DNA from: Candidatus Abyssobacteria bacterium SURF_5
GTDB taxonomy: Bacteria > Abyssobacteria > SURF-5
Direction of reading: 5' to 3'
Assembly: GCA_003598085.1 (NCBI GenBank)
Contig: QZKU01000105.1
Coordinates: forward strand, 1 to 46,284
Length of the DNA: 46,284 nt
Shown piece after piece: positions 187 through 40,920 of the stretch; position 1 is the first letter of the stretch; each line of letters begins with the position of its first letter. The translations under genes and the position numbers were made by a program. The notes below the pieces were generated by a model. That model ran no database searches and was not told where the DNA came from. It saw only the letters and a list, made by a program, of their open reading frames with translations.

Positions 187-495
187 ATGCTCGACACAAG
201 CAAGAGAGTGTTTGTTGCCCGCAGCGCGTTGGCAAATACAATCGCATTGGTTTTATTGGTAGCGTTTCTGTCAGCATCCTTCCTGGGAAGTTTTCATCTC
301 GCCTTATGCCATTCCGACCACGCAGAAGAACTGTGTCCATATTGCAAGTACAGCCAATTGTCAGTGGATATCCCCGTTGCCGCCAATCTATGTGTCTTTG
401 TCCCCGTGGCAGCGACATCGCCTCCGATCTGCTTCGCCGGCGGTGGATTCTTTGCCGTCCCTCCGTCAGAGCCTCGCGCCCCGCCGTCCGCCTGA
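187..495 (+). CDS. Small exported His/Cys-containing protein (unknown; loosely DUF2946-like)
   Basis: A 102-residue protein of unknown function. The ATG at 187 is chosen because GAGGAG lies just upstream and a strong promoter ends at 144. Residues about 12-37 form one hydrophobic segment that could be a signal peptide or anchor. It is followed by a short motif, CHSDHAEELCPYCKYSQ, with two His and three Cys. The remainder is Ala/Pro/Gly-rich and low in charge. His/Cys motifs after an N-terminal hydrophobic segment occur in DUF2946-like small proteins linked to metal handling, but the match is weak and by eye only. It lies 104 bases before the CDF-HflK fusion on the same strand, so a role with metal transport is an inference. 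Confidence 0.5.
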   Translation: MLDTSKRVFVARSALANTIALVLLVAFLSASFLGSFHLALCHSDHAEELCPYCKYSQLSVDIPVAANLCVFVPVAATSPPICFAGGGFFAVPPSEPRAPPSA

Positions 496-599: not shown

Positions 600-2486
600 A
601 TGACAAAGCAGGAAAAAGCGGCGATAGTTTCCATAGCCGTTAACCTTGCGCTTACACTGATCAAATTTGTTCTCGCCTCTGTTACCGCCAGTATCGCACT
701 TCTGGCCGAGTCATATCATTCCATGGCCGACATCCTGTCGTCTGTCATGGTCCTGCTGGCTGTTAGAGCTGACCGGTTAGATCACTCAAACTTCCTGGAG
801 GCGCAAGAAGGGACGAAAGGCAAGCAGCCTCCGGCCAGGAACAAGCCTAAGATCTTCACCCCGGGTACATGGGGAAATAAAGCGGCAATGATAATAGGGG
901 GTCTGCTCATCCTGGCCGCCGTCAACATTTTTGGCAGGGTCAGCCAGTCCGGAACTGCATCAGTTCGCTATCCGCTGAGCGCGGCGGCGATACTCGGTTT
1001 TCTTGCGCTGTGCTCCTATCTGCTTTACCGCTTCGAAAGCTCAGTGGGTGAAGACACCCGGTCAAACGCATTGATTGCTGATGGACGGCATGCGCAAACC
1101 GACATGCTGGCTTCGGTTCTTGTCGTGATTTCCCTGATTGCAGACAAGGTTGGATTGGGATTTGACAGAATCGCGGCGGGCATAATCGCCCTGTACATCC
1201 TCACGAGCGCCCTCTTTATCCTGGCCAAAGCCTTGCGTTCGTACGCCGCTACGTCCGGATTACAGGCTTTATCACGCGACGTCATCTATGAAGATATCCT
1301 TTTCCTCCTCGTCTATCGCGCTTATTCGAGAATTGACGAATCTCTGTGGGAAAGAGTGAGCCGGTTTCCAGGCCTGAAAGGTACAAATGAAACGGTAAAG
1401 AAGCGAGTCGCGTCCGTGTTGATTGTTCTGTTGTTCCTGATTGTATCGTGTGCCTACGCCGCGTCCGGAATTTACGTCCTGGGGCCGGGAGAAGAGGCGA
1501 TCATAGAGCGGTTCGGAAAACCGCTGCATACAGACTCGCCGGTCGGCCCGGGACTCCATTATCATTGGCCATGGCCCGTCGAGCGCGTGAAGATGGCCGA
1601 CGTAAAAAGCATCAGACGCTTGACGATCGGATATAAGACCGGCGATGAACAATTCCTGATATTGTGGACCAACAAGCATTATCTCCGTGAATATTCGTTA
1701 ATCACGGGAGAGGGGCCTTTTCTCGATGTGGCGATGAATGTGCATTACCGAGTGCAGAATCTCTACAATTATCTGTTCAACAGCGCCGAACCGGACAGCG
1801 CCATCAAAAAGATTGGCTATAACGTCCTCCGAGAAACCCTTGGAATAAGGCCTTTCTTTTCCTCGATTACCGCAGACCGAGACGCGTTGGAGGATACCAT
1901 TCTCGCTGAAATGCAGCGGCGGGTTGATGATCTGGGTCTCGGCCTTCTGGTACAGAACGTCTGTTTCCGAGATCTGCATCCTCCGACTCAGGTGGCATCG
2001 GCTTTCGAAGACGTGGTGAGCGCGCAGGAGGATTATGAGACATACATAGAAGAAGCCCATGGTTACCGCATGGACCTGTTACCGCGTGTCCGAGCTGCCG
2101 CCACAACAACACTCAACGATGCCGAGGCCTACCGCATTGCCCAGATAGCGCAGAGCCAAGGCAAAGCGCGCTTCTTCTTGCTGCAACAAGAGGTGTATCG
2201 GAACCGACAAGACGTTACCAAACTGCGGATGGTGCTCGAGACCATCGAGGAGGCTCTTTCCGGCACGCCCAAGTATGTCGTCAGCCGGAATGGGACCGGT
2301 GAAAATCCCGACTTGTGGTTCTCAGTGCCTCCGTTCGCCCAAATACCCCCTCTCAGCACTCAAACAGGAATGGAAGCACAGCCCAAGCAGATGAACGTCC
2401 AGAAGAAATTCGAAATCAATGGAGAAGAAGATTTGATTGATGCCATTACACGGTTTCATCAGGAAAGAGCGGGAGCAAAAAAATGA
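600..2486 (+). CDS. Fusion of a cation diffusion facilitator membrane domain with an HflK-type SPFH domain
   Basis: A 628-residue protein; the ATG at 600 follows AGAGGAA. Residues about 8-212 look like the six-helix membrane part of a CDF zinc/cation exporter. Both metal-site motifs are present: H40-x3-D44 in helix 2 (ESYHSMAD) and H164-x3-D168 in helix 5 (DGRHAQTD). A hydrophilic insert of about 40 residues lies between helices 2 and 3. The usual soluble CDF C-terminal domain is replaced by a linker, a further helix at about 270-291 and an SPFH/HflK domain to the end. HflK landmarks include VLGPGEEAIIERFGKP and GLHYHWPWPVE. HflK and HflC form a membrane cage around FtsH in other bacteria. 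The last four bases overlap the hflC-like start. The transporter half could be functional or a metal sensor. Confidence 0.85.
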   Translation: MTKQEKAAIVSIAVNLALTLIKFVLASVTASIALLAESYHSMADILSSVMVLLAVRADRLDHSNFLEAQEGTKGKQPPARNKPKIFTPGTWGNKAAMIIGGLLILAAVNIFGRVSQSGTASVRYPLSAAAILGFLALCSYLLYRFESSVGEDTRSNALIADGRHAQTDMLASVLVVISLIADKVGLGFDRIAAGIIALYILTSALFILAKALRSYAATSGLQALSRDVIYEDILFLLVYRAYSRIDESLWERVSRFPGLKGTNETVKKRVASVLIVLLFLIVSCAYAASGIYVLGPGEEAIIERFGKPLHTDSPVGPGLHYHWPWPVERVKMADVKSIRRLTIGYKTGDEQFLILWTNKHYLREYSLITGEGPFLDVAMNVHYRVQNLYNYLFNSAEPDSAIKKIGYNVLRETLGIRPFFSSITADRDALEDTILAEMQRRVDDLGLGLLVQNVCFRDLHPPTQVASAFEDVVSAQEDYETYIEEAHGYRMDLLPRVRAAATTTLNDAEAYRIAQIAQSQGKARFFLLQQEVYRNRQDVTKLRMVLETIEEALSGTPKYVVSRNGTGENPDLWFSVPPFAQIPPLSTQTGMEAQPKQMNVQKKFEINGEEDLIDAITRFHQERAGAKK

Positions 2487-3385
2487 AGAGCATAATCGCC
2501 TTTGTATCAATTATTGTTGGCATCCTGATCGCCGCCACTTCCTTCTTCTTTACAGCGGACGAATCGGAATACGTGGTAATGACGCAGTTCGGGAATCCGA
2601 TCAGAACGATCCGACAGGCCGGCCTGCACCGGAAGCTGCCCTGGCAATCCGTTAATCGGGTCGATCGCCGTATGCAGCTTTATGAAACACCCCTGATAGA
2701 ATACCTCACCAGCGATAAGAAAAATGTCGTCCTTCAGGCGTTTGTCTGTTGGCATGTCGATGACCCACTCGAGTTTTTCCGCGCCATGAGGACGTTCGAG
2801 AGCGCGAATCAGAGGCTGGATGACCTGGTAACCGCTTCAATGGGAGCAAAGCTCGGTGATTACGAAATGTCCAATCTCATTTCAATCAACCCGGACGAGG
2901 TGAAGATTTCAGAAATGGAAAAGACCATCGCCTCGGAGATAAACGCAAAAACCAAGGCGGGATATGGCATTCACGTCAGCCGCGTCGGCGTTTCCAGACT
3001 CGCTCTGCCGGAGGATAATGCCCAGAGCGTTTACAAGAGAATGGAGGCCGAGCGCTCAGCCATCGCAAACGAGTATCGCGCTCTCGGACATGAGGAGGCG
3101 GATAAGATCAAGTCGGAGGCTGACAGAGAAAAAAGCGACATCATTGCCAAGGCCTATAGCGAAGCTCAGATAATTCGGGGTGAGGGAGACGCAAAGGCCG
3201 CCGAAATCTATGCAAAAGCATATTCACAGGCTCCCGACTTCTTCGAACTGATGAGAACTCTGGAGGTATACAAAAAAATCCTTAACAAAGAAACCATCAT
3301 CGTCATGTCGGCCGACTCAGACCTCCTGAAATACCTGGACGGAACCCTGACTGCCGGAATGAAAGAAACTGGTGCAGCACAGTGA
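2483..3385 (+). CDS. hflC: HflC-like SPFH membrane protein
   Basis: A 300-residue stomatin/prohibitin-family protein. One N-terminal membrane segment (about 4-24) is followed by an SPFH domain starting with EYVVMTQFGNPIRTI and the HflC-like GLHRKLPWQSV. A charged, Ala-rich helical stretch from about 185 to 245 should form the coiled coil that assembles the cage. HflC normally pairs with HflK to modulate the FtsH protease. The start overlaps the previous stop by four bases (ATGA), and its own stop overlaps the next GTG start. The three genes are therefore translationally coupled and probably give one hetero-oligomer. Family assignment is firm; the partner protease is not in the window. Confidence 0.87.
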   Translation: MKSIIAFVSIIVGILIAATSFFFTADESEYVVMTQFGNPIRTIRQAGLHRKLPWQSVNRVDRRMQLYETPLIEYLTSDKKNVVLQAFVCWHVDDPLEFFRAMRTFESANQRLDDLVTASMGAKLGDYEMSNLISINPDEVKISEMEKTIASEINAKTKAGYGIHVSRVGVSRLALPEDNAQSVYKRMEAERSAIANEYRALGHEEADKIKSEADREKSDIIAKAYSEAQIIRGEGDAKAAEIYAKAYSQAPDFFELMRTLEVYKKILNKETIIVMSADSDLLKYLDGTLTAGMKETGAAQ

Positions 3386-4383
3386 AATGGGCAGATAACA
3401 GATCGGAATTCTCTTCGGAGCTGCTGATCCTCAGGAGAATCAGCCGGCGTCTGCTCTTCTGGATTTTCATTCTCGCCGTCATTTGTTACCCCCTCAGCGG
3501 AATCTACATCGTCGGTGTAAACGAGACAGGTATCCTCAAGAAATTCGGCCGCGTCGTTAATCGCCGGGTTTCTTCCGGCCTGCATTACCGCATCCCATGG
3601 CCGGTGGACAAAGTGATAAAGGTCTCTACCAAAGAAATCCGCCGGTTCCAGGCCGGATTCGGAGCCGACCCCGAGGAAGTGAACCGGTATGAGCGCGATT
3701 TCGGGGCCTTGGACGGAAATCGGCTGGGATCGTTCGTTGTCCCCTACTGCATTACGGGCGACAAGAACATCATTCACATGAAAATAATCGCCCAATACCG
3801 CATTGATGATCCGAAGGCCTACTTGACCCGCTTCAAAGATGCCGAAGGCGTGGCTCTTCGTTGCATCCAGTCCGCAATCCTGAAAAGACTCAGCTATGCG
3901 GATGTCGATTCTGCGCTCACGGCAGGAAGGGTCGTGCTCCAGAAGGACATCCTTGCAGACGTCCAGAAACAGTTGTCCGATTTGAATACCGGCATAACTG
4001 TTTTCTCAGCAGAAATAAAGAACGCGCGGCCCCCCGCCAGCGTCGCCCAAGCTTTTAAAGATGTCATAAATGCCCGAGAAGAACTGCGGGCAATGGTCCA
4101 TGACGCCCAGGCCTATCGAAATCAGATAATACCGGAAGGCAAAGCCGAAGCCGCACGAATCCTGAATGAGGCCCAAGCCTATAAAACCAAAAAGATAGCA
4201 CATGCCCGGGGCGAGGCACAAAGATTTGAACTGCTGGCAAGTGAGTTTAACAAAGACAAGGAGCTCACTACCCGCCGCCTGCGCCTAGACACCCTCGCCG
4301 AGATACTCCCGTCAGTCCGAAAACTCATTGTCGGAACCGAGCAAGGTGAGGATATCGCAAACCTCAGATTCCTAACCAGGTAA
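3382..4383 (+). CDS. hflK: HflK-like SPFH membrane protein, second copy
   Basis: A 333-residue HflK-type protein starting with GTG at 3382, overlapping the hflC-like stop by four bases. A membrane helix lies at about 23-45. It is followed by GIYIVGVNETGILKKFGRV and LHYRIPWPVDKV, which match the opening of the HflK SPFH domain. An Ala/Glu/Arg-rich coiled-coil region covers about 230-300. Unlike the 600-2486 protein it has no transporter domain, so the operon encodes two HflK-type proteins per HflC. This could allow alternating or mixed cages. A hairpin with a short T-run lies about 145 bases downstream. Confidence 0.87.
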   Translation: MKWADNRSEFSSELLILRRISRRLLFWIFILAVICYPLSGIYIVGVNETGILKKFGRVVNRRVSSGLHYRIPWPVDKVIKVSTKEIRRFQAGFGADPEEVNRYERDFGALDGNRLGSFVVPYCITGDKNIIHMKIIAQYRIDDPKAYLTRFKDAEGVALRCIQSAILKRLSYADVDSALTAGRVVLQKDILADVQKQLSDLNTGITVFSAEIKNARPPASVAQAFKDVINAREELRAMVHDAQAYRNQIIPEGKAEAARILNEAQAYKTKKIAHARGEAQRFELLASEFNKDKELTTRRLRLDTLAEILPSVRKLIVGTEQGEDIANLRFLTR

Positions 4384-5029: not shown

Positions 5030-5641
5030 TTAAGAGGCCACTCCTTCAAGCACCAGCAACCGCAAATTCTTGAACAGCCACGATAGCTCGAGGCGGTCCG
5101 GGTCCAGATGCGCCATCATCGTCGTCCCCTGAAGCGCACCGATGATCAAAAGAGCCAAAGAATCCGGATTCACCCATTCCTTGAACAAACCCTCTTGCTT
5201 TCCCTGCTCGAGGATCTGGACAATGCTCTGCTTCCAATTCATGTAGATCTTCCGAAGGCGTTCGGAAAAATGCTGCTCGACCTCCATCATTTCCGCCGTC
5301 AGGACCGCCAGCAGGGCGCACCCATGGAAAACATTGCCCTCGTGCGTCTTGATCATGATATCAAACATCCGTTCAATCTTGGCGAGGGCCCCTTTTTCCC
5401 TGGCAACCTCATTCAGCACGTTTTTTACCCAAAAATCCTTCATATATTCAATAACTGCATCGCCAAGTTCTTCCTTGCTCTTGAAATGGAAGTAGAATCC
5501 GCCTTTGGTAATGCCCGAGGCGGTCAGTATCTGAGTCAACGAAGTGCTGTGGAAGCCGTTCTTTCTGAACAGTTCAGCCGCAACTTCCACGATCCGTTCG
5601 CGAGTGTGCTTCCCTTTTTCTAAGGTTGTAGTCATCATCAT
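5030..5641 (-). CDS. TetR/AcrR-family transcriptional regulator
   Basis: 203 residues when started at the first of three consecutive ATGs (5641, 5638, 5635). The N-terminal 60 residues are a typical TetR helix-turn-helix: TRERIVEVAAELFRKNGF, then TSLTQILTASGITKGGFYFH, then FKSKEEL. The C-terminal ligand-binding part is helical, with short runs such as CALLAVLTAEMMEVEQHF. An in-frame GTG at 5686 is rejected because it lies inside the promoter. A palindromic operator lies between the -10 box and the start, so autorepression is expected. A second identical operator core precedes the next gene. The ligand is unknown. Confidence 0.9.
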   Translation of the reverse strand: MMMTTTLEKGKHTRERIVEVAAELFRKNGFHSTSLTQILTASGITKGGFYFHFKSKEELGDAVIEYMKDFWVKNVLNEVAREKGALAKIERMFDIMIKTHEGNVFHGCALLAVLTAEMMEVEQHFSERLRKIYMNWKQSIVQILEQGKQEGLFKEWVNPDSLALLIIGALQGTTMMAHLDPDRLELSWLFKNLRLLVLEGVAS

Positions 5642-5649
5642 TCTCTTAA

Positions 5650-5667
5650 AAACCGACCAGTCGGTTT
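5650..5667. promoter_or_regulatory. TetR autoregulatory operator
   Basis: Arms AAACCGAC and GTCGGTTT around a CA centre, a perfect 8-base inverted repeat. It lies immediately downstream of the -10 box of the tetR promoter and just upstream of the ATG run. A bound repressor would cover the transcription start. The core recurs at 4999-5012. Confidence 0.8.
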
Positions 5668-5676
5668 CTAACACAA

Positions 5677-5705
5677 ATTTTACCACGCTCCCCCTGTCTT
5701 GTCAA
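5677..5705 (-). promoter_or_regulatory. Promoter of the tetR gene
   Basis: On the minus strand TTGACA (5705-5700), 17 bases, TAAAAT (5682-5677). This is a near-consensus sigma70 promoter. It places the transcription start inside the operator and fixes the start codon at 5641-5635. Confidence 0.75.
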
Positions 5706-40567: not shown

Positions 40568-40920
40568 TGGTGGAGGCGGGGGGAATTGAACCCCCGTCCA
40601 AAGATATCGCTCGTTGAGCGTCTACATGCTTATCTCATGTTTTGATCTTGCCGATAGCGCCTCCCATGAGAAGGATGCGCCACTGGCCAGCCCGTAAATT
40701 TCGCGCCGATAGGCCGGGCCGTTTACCGGCGCCATCCTGCTAATCGACGGCTCTTCCCGATCCGCAGGCTGATCGAGGGAGCCGGGCCACTTTGTTAAGC
40801 AGCCATTGCAAATTCGTGATCTGCAGTTACATTTTGTTTCCCGACCGTTTAACGAGTGGTACGGGGTGCTCGGCATGCAACCCAAGAAGCAGCTATCCCT
40901 GTCGAACCCTTTTCGCCCCC
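40568..40920 (-). ncRNA. ssrA: tmRNA (one-piece ssrA)
   Basis: A 353-base RNA. The 5' end GGGGGCG (40920-40914) pairs with CGCCTCC before ACCA (3' end at 40568), giving a 7-base acceptor stem with one G-U pair. The T-arm GGGTTCAATTCCC precedes it, and GGTTCGACAGGGATAGC is near the 5' end. The tag frame is preceded by TGTAACT, with resume codon GCA: ADHEFAMAA then TAA. It rescues stalled ribosomes and marks the product for proteolysis. The 3' ACCA is encoded. It starts one base after the smpB stop. Confidence 0.96.

Follow-up and report, generated by a model that had tools for sequence, protein, structure and literature searches.

The function of the cages that bacterial SPFH proteins build is a long-standing question, and their cargo is usually unknown and non-covalently held. 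Exporters of the CDF family (YiiP/FieF, ZitB, MntE) possess six transmembrane helices and, typically though not universally, a ferredoxin-like C-terminal dimerization and sensor domain that lies in the cytosol. The best described bacterial cage is that of Escherichia coli HflK and HflC (SPFH3; PDB 7vhp, 7wi3 and 9cz2): HflK SPFH domains are periplasmic, and the two proteins form a 24-subunit dome on the periplasmic face of the membrane that encloses FtsH (PMC12005517). Domes of stomatin, described in a preprint, enclose aquaporin-1 (AQP1) and urea transporter-B (UT-B) in erythrocytes and provide a precedent for transporter encapsulation (PMC12407830). The subject of this analysis is a three-gene SPFH operon in Candidatus Abyssobacteria bacterium SURF_5, located on a stretch of 46,284 nucleotides (contig QZKU01000105.1, positions 1 to 46,284 of the forward strand) that is referred to as the window. 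The first gene joins a CDF transporter to an HflK-type SPFH domain and is followed by an HflC-like and a second HflK-like gene (HflK2): together, the three genes probably specify a dedicated HflK/HflC-type dome of which a metal exporter is a covalent part.

The CDF-HflK gene has its probable start at ATG 600 (MTKQEK..), ahead of which stands AGAGGAAC. Both halves of the protein are recognized by family models above their cut-offs. The Cation_efflux model (PF01545) covers residues 20–224 with 76.4 bits against a cut-off of 26.6 (E=3.4e-21), Band_7 (PF01145) covers residues 304–499 (E=9.3e-17, above the curated cut-off) and the NCBIfam hflK model TIGR01933 covers residues 302–574 with 177.1 bits against 159.4. 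The full-length CDF model TIGR01297 reaches 70.1, under its cut-off of 82.4, and the cytosolic C-terminal domain of CDF proteins has no Pfam match in CDF-HflK: a short linker, a seventh transmembrane helix and the SPFH domain are found instead. A tetrahedral metal site, defined by (H/D)-x3-D in the second and again in the fifth transmembrane helix, is present in the form of HSMAD and HAQTD. When PDB sequences are searched, residues 286–576 align with E. coli HflK. An AlphaFold2 monomer model of modest confidence displays six transmembrane helices that match the zinc transporter YiiP (root-mean-square deviation ∼3 Å), followed by the linker, the seventh helix and an SPFH domain with the fold of E. 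coli HflK. In homologues from Clostridia and Aquibium the linker is rich in histidine. An earlier note on this DNA had described a six-helix CDF domain with both H-x3-D motifs that leads into a complete SPFH domain of the HflK type, in place of the C-terminal domain normal for CDF proteins; these matches bear it out.

The two downstream genes score 189.2 bits with the HflC model TIGR01932 (cut-off 134.4) and 198.1 bits with TIGR01933 (cut-off 159.4), respectively. Judged by the junctions, both of which are four-base overlaps (ATGA at 2483–2486 and GTGA at 3382–3385), CDF-HflK, HflC and HflK2 are translationally coupled; the earlier note had placed correctly the extent of the operon, 600–4383, and the coupling of the fusion gene to two more SPFH genes. 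On a different contig the same genome harbours a regular HflK-HflC pair; it also encodes one FtsH and two stand-alone CDF proteins, and the operon is therefore an addition to the housekeeping set. Its three SPFH parts match HflK/HflC profiles, the fused HflK part being also recognizable by sequence and fold, and share with E. coli HflK the succession of one transmembrane helix, a periplasmic SPFH domain and a coiled coil. In contrast to the E. coli pair, three genes are present rather than two, the proteins belong to distinct clades, a transporter is fused to HflK and FtsH is not indicated as cargo. Similarly, the CDF part shares the six-helix fold and both motifs of the HD-HD type of site with known exporters, but lacks their cytosolic domain and continues through a seventh helix into an SPFH domain across the membrane. 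The features are collected in the table.

Table. Features of the CDF-HflK operon in the window, with the evidence for each
Feature	Position	Strand	Evidence
CDF-HflK fusion gene	600..2486	+	628 amino acids from ATG 600; open reading frame 567-2486; PF01545 and PF01145/TIGR01933 above cut-offs; fusion conserved
CDF six-helix transmembrane domain (Cation_efflux)	624..1238	+	PF01545 E=5.3e-21; AlphaFold2 helices match YiiP
Metal-site motif HSMAD (H-x3-D), transmembrane helix 2	717..731	+	sequence; H-x3-D retained in 22/23 CDF fusions
Metal-site motif HAQTD (H-x3-D), transmembrane helix 5	1089..1103	+	sequence; H-x3-D retained in 22/23 CDF fusions
Predicted cytosolic linker where the CDF C-terminal domain would be	1254..1388	+	low-confidence model segment; alignment; no CDF C-terminal domain match
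Transmembrane helix 7, counterpart of the single HflK helix	1389..1466	+	model helix 264-289; E. coli HflK alignment from residue 286
HflK-type SPFH domain and coiled coil	1470..2288	+	TIGR01933 residues 302-574; PDB 7vhp/7wi3/9cz2
HflC-like SPFH gene, system-specific clade	2483..3385	+	TIGR01932 189 bits; apart from canonical HflC at 100/99
Second HflK-like SPFH gene (HflK2), start GTG	3382..4383	+	TIGR01933 198 bits; third-gene clade 99/93

The fusion is not confined to the window. Candidatus Abyssobacteria SURF_17 encodes the same CDF-HflK protein at 59% identity, and the order CDF-HflK, HflC, HflK recurs in unrelated families with identities of ∼26–31% between fusions. The carriers include Clostridia and a spirochaete as well as a conjugative plasmid of an alphaproteobacterium (complete record NZ_CP018172.1); a Nitrospirota contig displays the HflC and HflK2 genes, the first gene being cut by the contig end. 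H-x3-D is complete in the second helix in 22 of 23 CDF fusions, in the fifth in 22 of 23 and in both in 21 of 23. Retention of the metal site by proteins that otherwise agree at about one residue in four is a sign of strong selection. For a census that did not select for fusion, a profile built from the HflC proteins of the system itself was run on 386 genomes and ambiguous loci were then fetched. With the window's genome counted, the system is present in approximately 40 of 387 sampled genomes from 27 families. Fifteen harbour an intact CDF fusion (in one, G092, on another contig) and 13 a fusion to a transporter of the SO_0444 type; one contains a fused P1B-type ATPase alongside a CDF fusion, and one an EamA fusion alongside an SO_0444-type fusion. 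In eight genomes the six-helix partner has no metal motifs and a P1B-type ATPase is encoded as the fourth gene. The remainder comprises G070, with a degenerate CDF domain at a contig end, and three genomes in which contig ends cut the locus. No intact system with a plain HflK as first gene was found in this census. On these counts the three-gene system is widespread, neither an oddity nor an assembly error. The earlier note was right to doubt that the arrangement is a standard one, though it is a widespread one. Absence of the fusion from all relatives had been named as grounds for refutation, yet at least 15 of the sampled genomes carry it in its CDF form, as does the plasmid.

The partner fused to HflK is exchangeable. 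Reading of overlong HflK-like frames revealed other transporters ahead of the same kind of HflK domain, with HflC and HflK genes following in nearly all cases. Ten fusions of the first batch match the ArsP_1 family (PF03773), seven of them confirmed by Pfam and the rest placed by sequence; the four that were scanned with NCBIfam all exceed the cut-off of NF033936, ‘SO_0444 family Cu/Zn efflux transporter’. Fusions to P1B heavy-metal ATPases occur in five genomes (PF00122/PF00702; TIGR01525, ‘heavy metal translocating P-type ATPase’), and where scanned the alternative partners lie above the NF033936 or TIGR01525 cut-offs. These fusions also retain the hallmarks of their families: CSC and YxCA motifs in the SO_0444-type proteins (two judged by eye, as the pattern missed a substituted residue), and CPC, DKTGT and GDGIND in all five P1B proteins. 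In the HflC tree the systems with a degenerate partner cluster together (100/98), next to the CDF group to which the window's operon belongs (96/88). Loss of function in the fused transporter, with a separate ATPase as replacement, fits this branch. Three of the SO_0444-HflK loci (L096, L097 and L150) contain an extra HflC-like gene upstream, and in L096 and L097 a FmdA_AmdA (acetamidase/formamidase) gene stands between the two.

Unrooted trees place the SPFH proteins of the system apart from the canonical ones. In the HflC trees a single branch divides all system proteins from all canonical HflCs (100/99), with 40 versus 34 sequences in one tree and 52 versus 20 in the other. In the HflK tree the third-gene proteins constitute one group (99/93), and the fused HflKs, whatever their partner, are split from canonical and third-gene HflKs (98/95). 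Fused and third-gene proteins show broadly matching subgroups, as expected if they have been inherited together. On sequence evidence, CDF-HflK, HflC and HflK2 are shown to be co-encoded and co-inherited paralogues distinct from housekeeping HflKC, and the transporter parts to be constrained as transporters. A single clade of CDF fusions was considered and is unsupported: these fusions sit on several branches. Partner swapping, as opposed to independent fusions, is the simplest reading of the trees.

The clearest gene neighbourhood is found on the conjugative plasmid of the cultured Aquibium oceanicum (NZ_CP018172.1), where the CDF-HflK operon is part of a metal island that encompasses a response regulator, a sensor kinase, CDF-HflK, HflC, HflK, a peptidyl-prolyl isomerase, a ZntA-like P-type ATPase with top scores against zinc/cadmium models, PCu(A)C copper chaperones and SCO, together with DsbB and thioredoxin-domain genes. 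The Clostridia and spirochaete loci include peptidyl-prolyl isomerase and two-component genes, and the spirochaete an HMA-domain P1B ATPase in addition. Several other operons adjoin genes of the iron-sulphur (Fe-S) type MinD/NUBPL or NifU_N. The SURF_17 operon is flanked by MinD-type ATPases (L078, 5240–6133 and 9901–11798; also L071), two of which have ferredoxin domains, an arrangement not seen in the window, and genes related to MinD-type ATPases follow the operon in Nitrospirota.

A role of the system in metal homeostasis or tolerance is very likely on this comparative evidence, and the connection that the earlier note drew, of metal export with an SPFH complex, is supported. By analogy with the HflKC and stomatin domes, confinement of the exporter by the dome is, on balance, to be expected. 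The three SPFH subunits would assemble together, closing a ring that is topped by a dome in the periplasm or, in bacteria with a single membrane, outside the cell. The six-helix CDF parts would sit in the membrane patch enclosed by the ring and pair as CDF dimers, and proton-driven efflux would discharge metal into the dome. The dome may thus keep the exporter in its own lipid patch, protect or regulate it, and limit or direct the exported metal. The cage would be constant and the transporter an exchangeable cargo: a CDF, SO_0444-type or P1B ATPase domain in cis or, when the fused domain has lost its motifs, a P1B-type ATPase from the fourth gene. In its boldest form, the reading becomes an evenly balanced proposition: that the system represents a class of SPFH ‘membrane encapsulins’ not previously described in bacteria, a third HflK/HflC paralogue lineage whose dome surrounds an interchangeable, covalently attached metal exporter that pumps toxic metal into a confined compartment, and which spreads between phyla, sometimes on conjugative plasmids.

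Several observations weigh against this picture. The monomer model is weak (mean predicted local distance difference test score, pLDDT, 62; predicted template modelling score, pTM, 0.36). The probable identity of the metal, Zn(II) or another divalent ion like it, comes from the HD-HD site, the motifs and the families. One locus (L185, 4924–7311; G119, C137) encodes an EamA (drug/metabolite) transporter-HflK protein followed by HflC and HflK2: it is the sole partner found that is not a metal exporter, it weakens the generalization that the partner always is one, and the system may be tied to transporters of any kind. The fourth-gene P1B-type ATPases at L190, L191, L192 and L187 carry altered CPC motifs (VPC, CPT, CPG), which suggests a changed substrate or role. 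Finally, the neighbours of the operon in the window (a TetR regulator, a phosphatase, Mut7-C and Memo/AMMECR1) include no metal genes. The TetR-family regulator lies downstream of the operon in convergent orientation (5030–5686, − strand). Upstream, a small open reading frame at 187–495 (+ strand) encodes a helix resembling a signal sequence and a stretch rich in Cys and His, CHSDHAEELCPYC; it has no Pfam match, and its product is possibly a small metal-binding protein.

Other explanations can be set against a dome that houses an exporter. The genes might encode a cage that controls FtsH, with the CDF domain acting as a metal sensor (transceptor) whose metal flux or binding sets FtsH proteolysis. 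E. coli HflKC does enclose FtsH (PMC12005517) and NCBIfam assigns the SPFH parts of all three genes to HflK/HflC, but none of the operons examined showed an adjacent ftsH, the genome retains canonical HflKC and one FtsH, the SPFH genes of the system are separate clades, and swaps to P1B ATPases and SO_0444-type permeases do not suggest a sensor. An FtsH-regulating role is unlikely; the earlier note pointed in this direction, and nothing found in this analysis ties the complex to that protease. The same note had the SPFH cage replace the CDF sensor domain. The sensor is cytosolic and the SPFH domain of HflK periplasmic, behind an additional transmembrane helix: the dome would lie on the membrane face opposite the lost domain, and the cage is therefore no simple replacement of it. 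A metal-sensing device specific to CDF proteins is the poorer fit: as the partner is exchangeable among CDF, SO_0444-type, P1B and once EamA transporters, a cage serving transporters fits better.

Somewhat less improbable than FtsH control, yet still doubtful, is a function in metal supply, whereby the exporter fills a sheltered compartment with metal and metalloproteins or copper/zinc sites mature there with the help of the linked isomerase and copper-chaperone genes. The isomerase genes of the Clostridia, spirochaete and Aquibium loci, the SCO, PCu(A)C, DsbB and thioredoxin-domain genes of Aquibium and the MinD/NUBPL and NifU_N neighbours of several operons speak for it; isomerases and copper chaperones are nevertheless linked to only part of the loci examined, and the ZntA-like and HMA-P1B neighbours indicate detoxification. 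The transporter domain could also be a mere membrane anchor or assembly module of transporter descent, to which transport is foreign, as the eight systems that retain a six-helix domain without metal motifs might suggest. This is improbable: metal-binding or catalytic residues are conserved in fusions of ∼25–30% identity from three unrelated families, and a P1B-type ATPase gene is present where the motifs are lost. An assembly artefact or chance read-through joining two genes has a negligible probability. Both carrier genomes in the window's family are draft assemblies, but the frame is open throughout CDF-HflK, with neither a stop nor a frameshift at the domain junction, codon-position G+C is similar on its two sides, and the same fusion is present in many genomes and in a complete plasmid record. 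Recurrence at 59% and at ∼26–31% identity rules out both a chance match and a joining artefact; a frameshift is likewise rejected on account of this conservation.

Elsewhere in the window, a transfer-messenger RNA gene is located at 40568–40920 (− strand) and encodes the tag ADHEFAMAA.

The families assembled in the system are known, whereas their combination, its breadth and the exchangeable cargo appear undescribed in the open-access literature, to which the search was limited. No description was found there of SPFH/HflK fusions with CDF, ArsP, P-type ATPase or other metal transporters, nor of SO_0444 or P1B members fused to HflK, and the words ‘cation’, ‘fused’ and ‘transporter’ are absent from a 2009 survey of prokaryotic SPFH proteins. 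A close parallel is provided by the stomatin domes, for which a membrane encapsulin principle has been proposed (PMC12407830, preprint). Like them, the system would unite an SPFH dome with membrane transporters; stomatin cargo is non-covalent, whereas here the transporter is shown by sequence to be fused, is usually a metal exporter and would sit under the dome.

As the cargo is fused to the cage and appears to have been exchanged several times, the relation between the two can be read from sequence and is directly testable, and the cultured Aquibium oceanicum, with its plasmid-borne version, offers a tractable test case. If the proposal is true, the system would be a bacterial counterpart of the stomatin-transporter complexes and a new form of metal resistance, as well as a natural scaffold on which the effects of a membrane microdomain on a transporter could be studied. 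On this analysis, some bacteria may keep metal pumps under domes made of protein.

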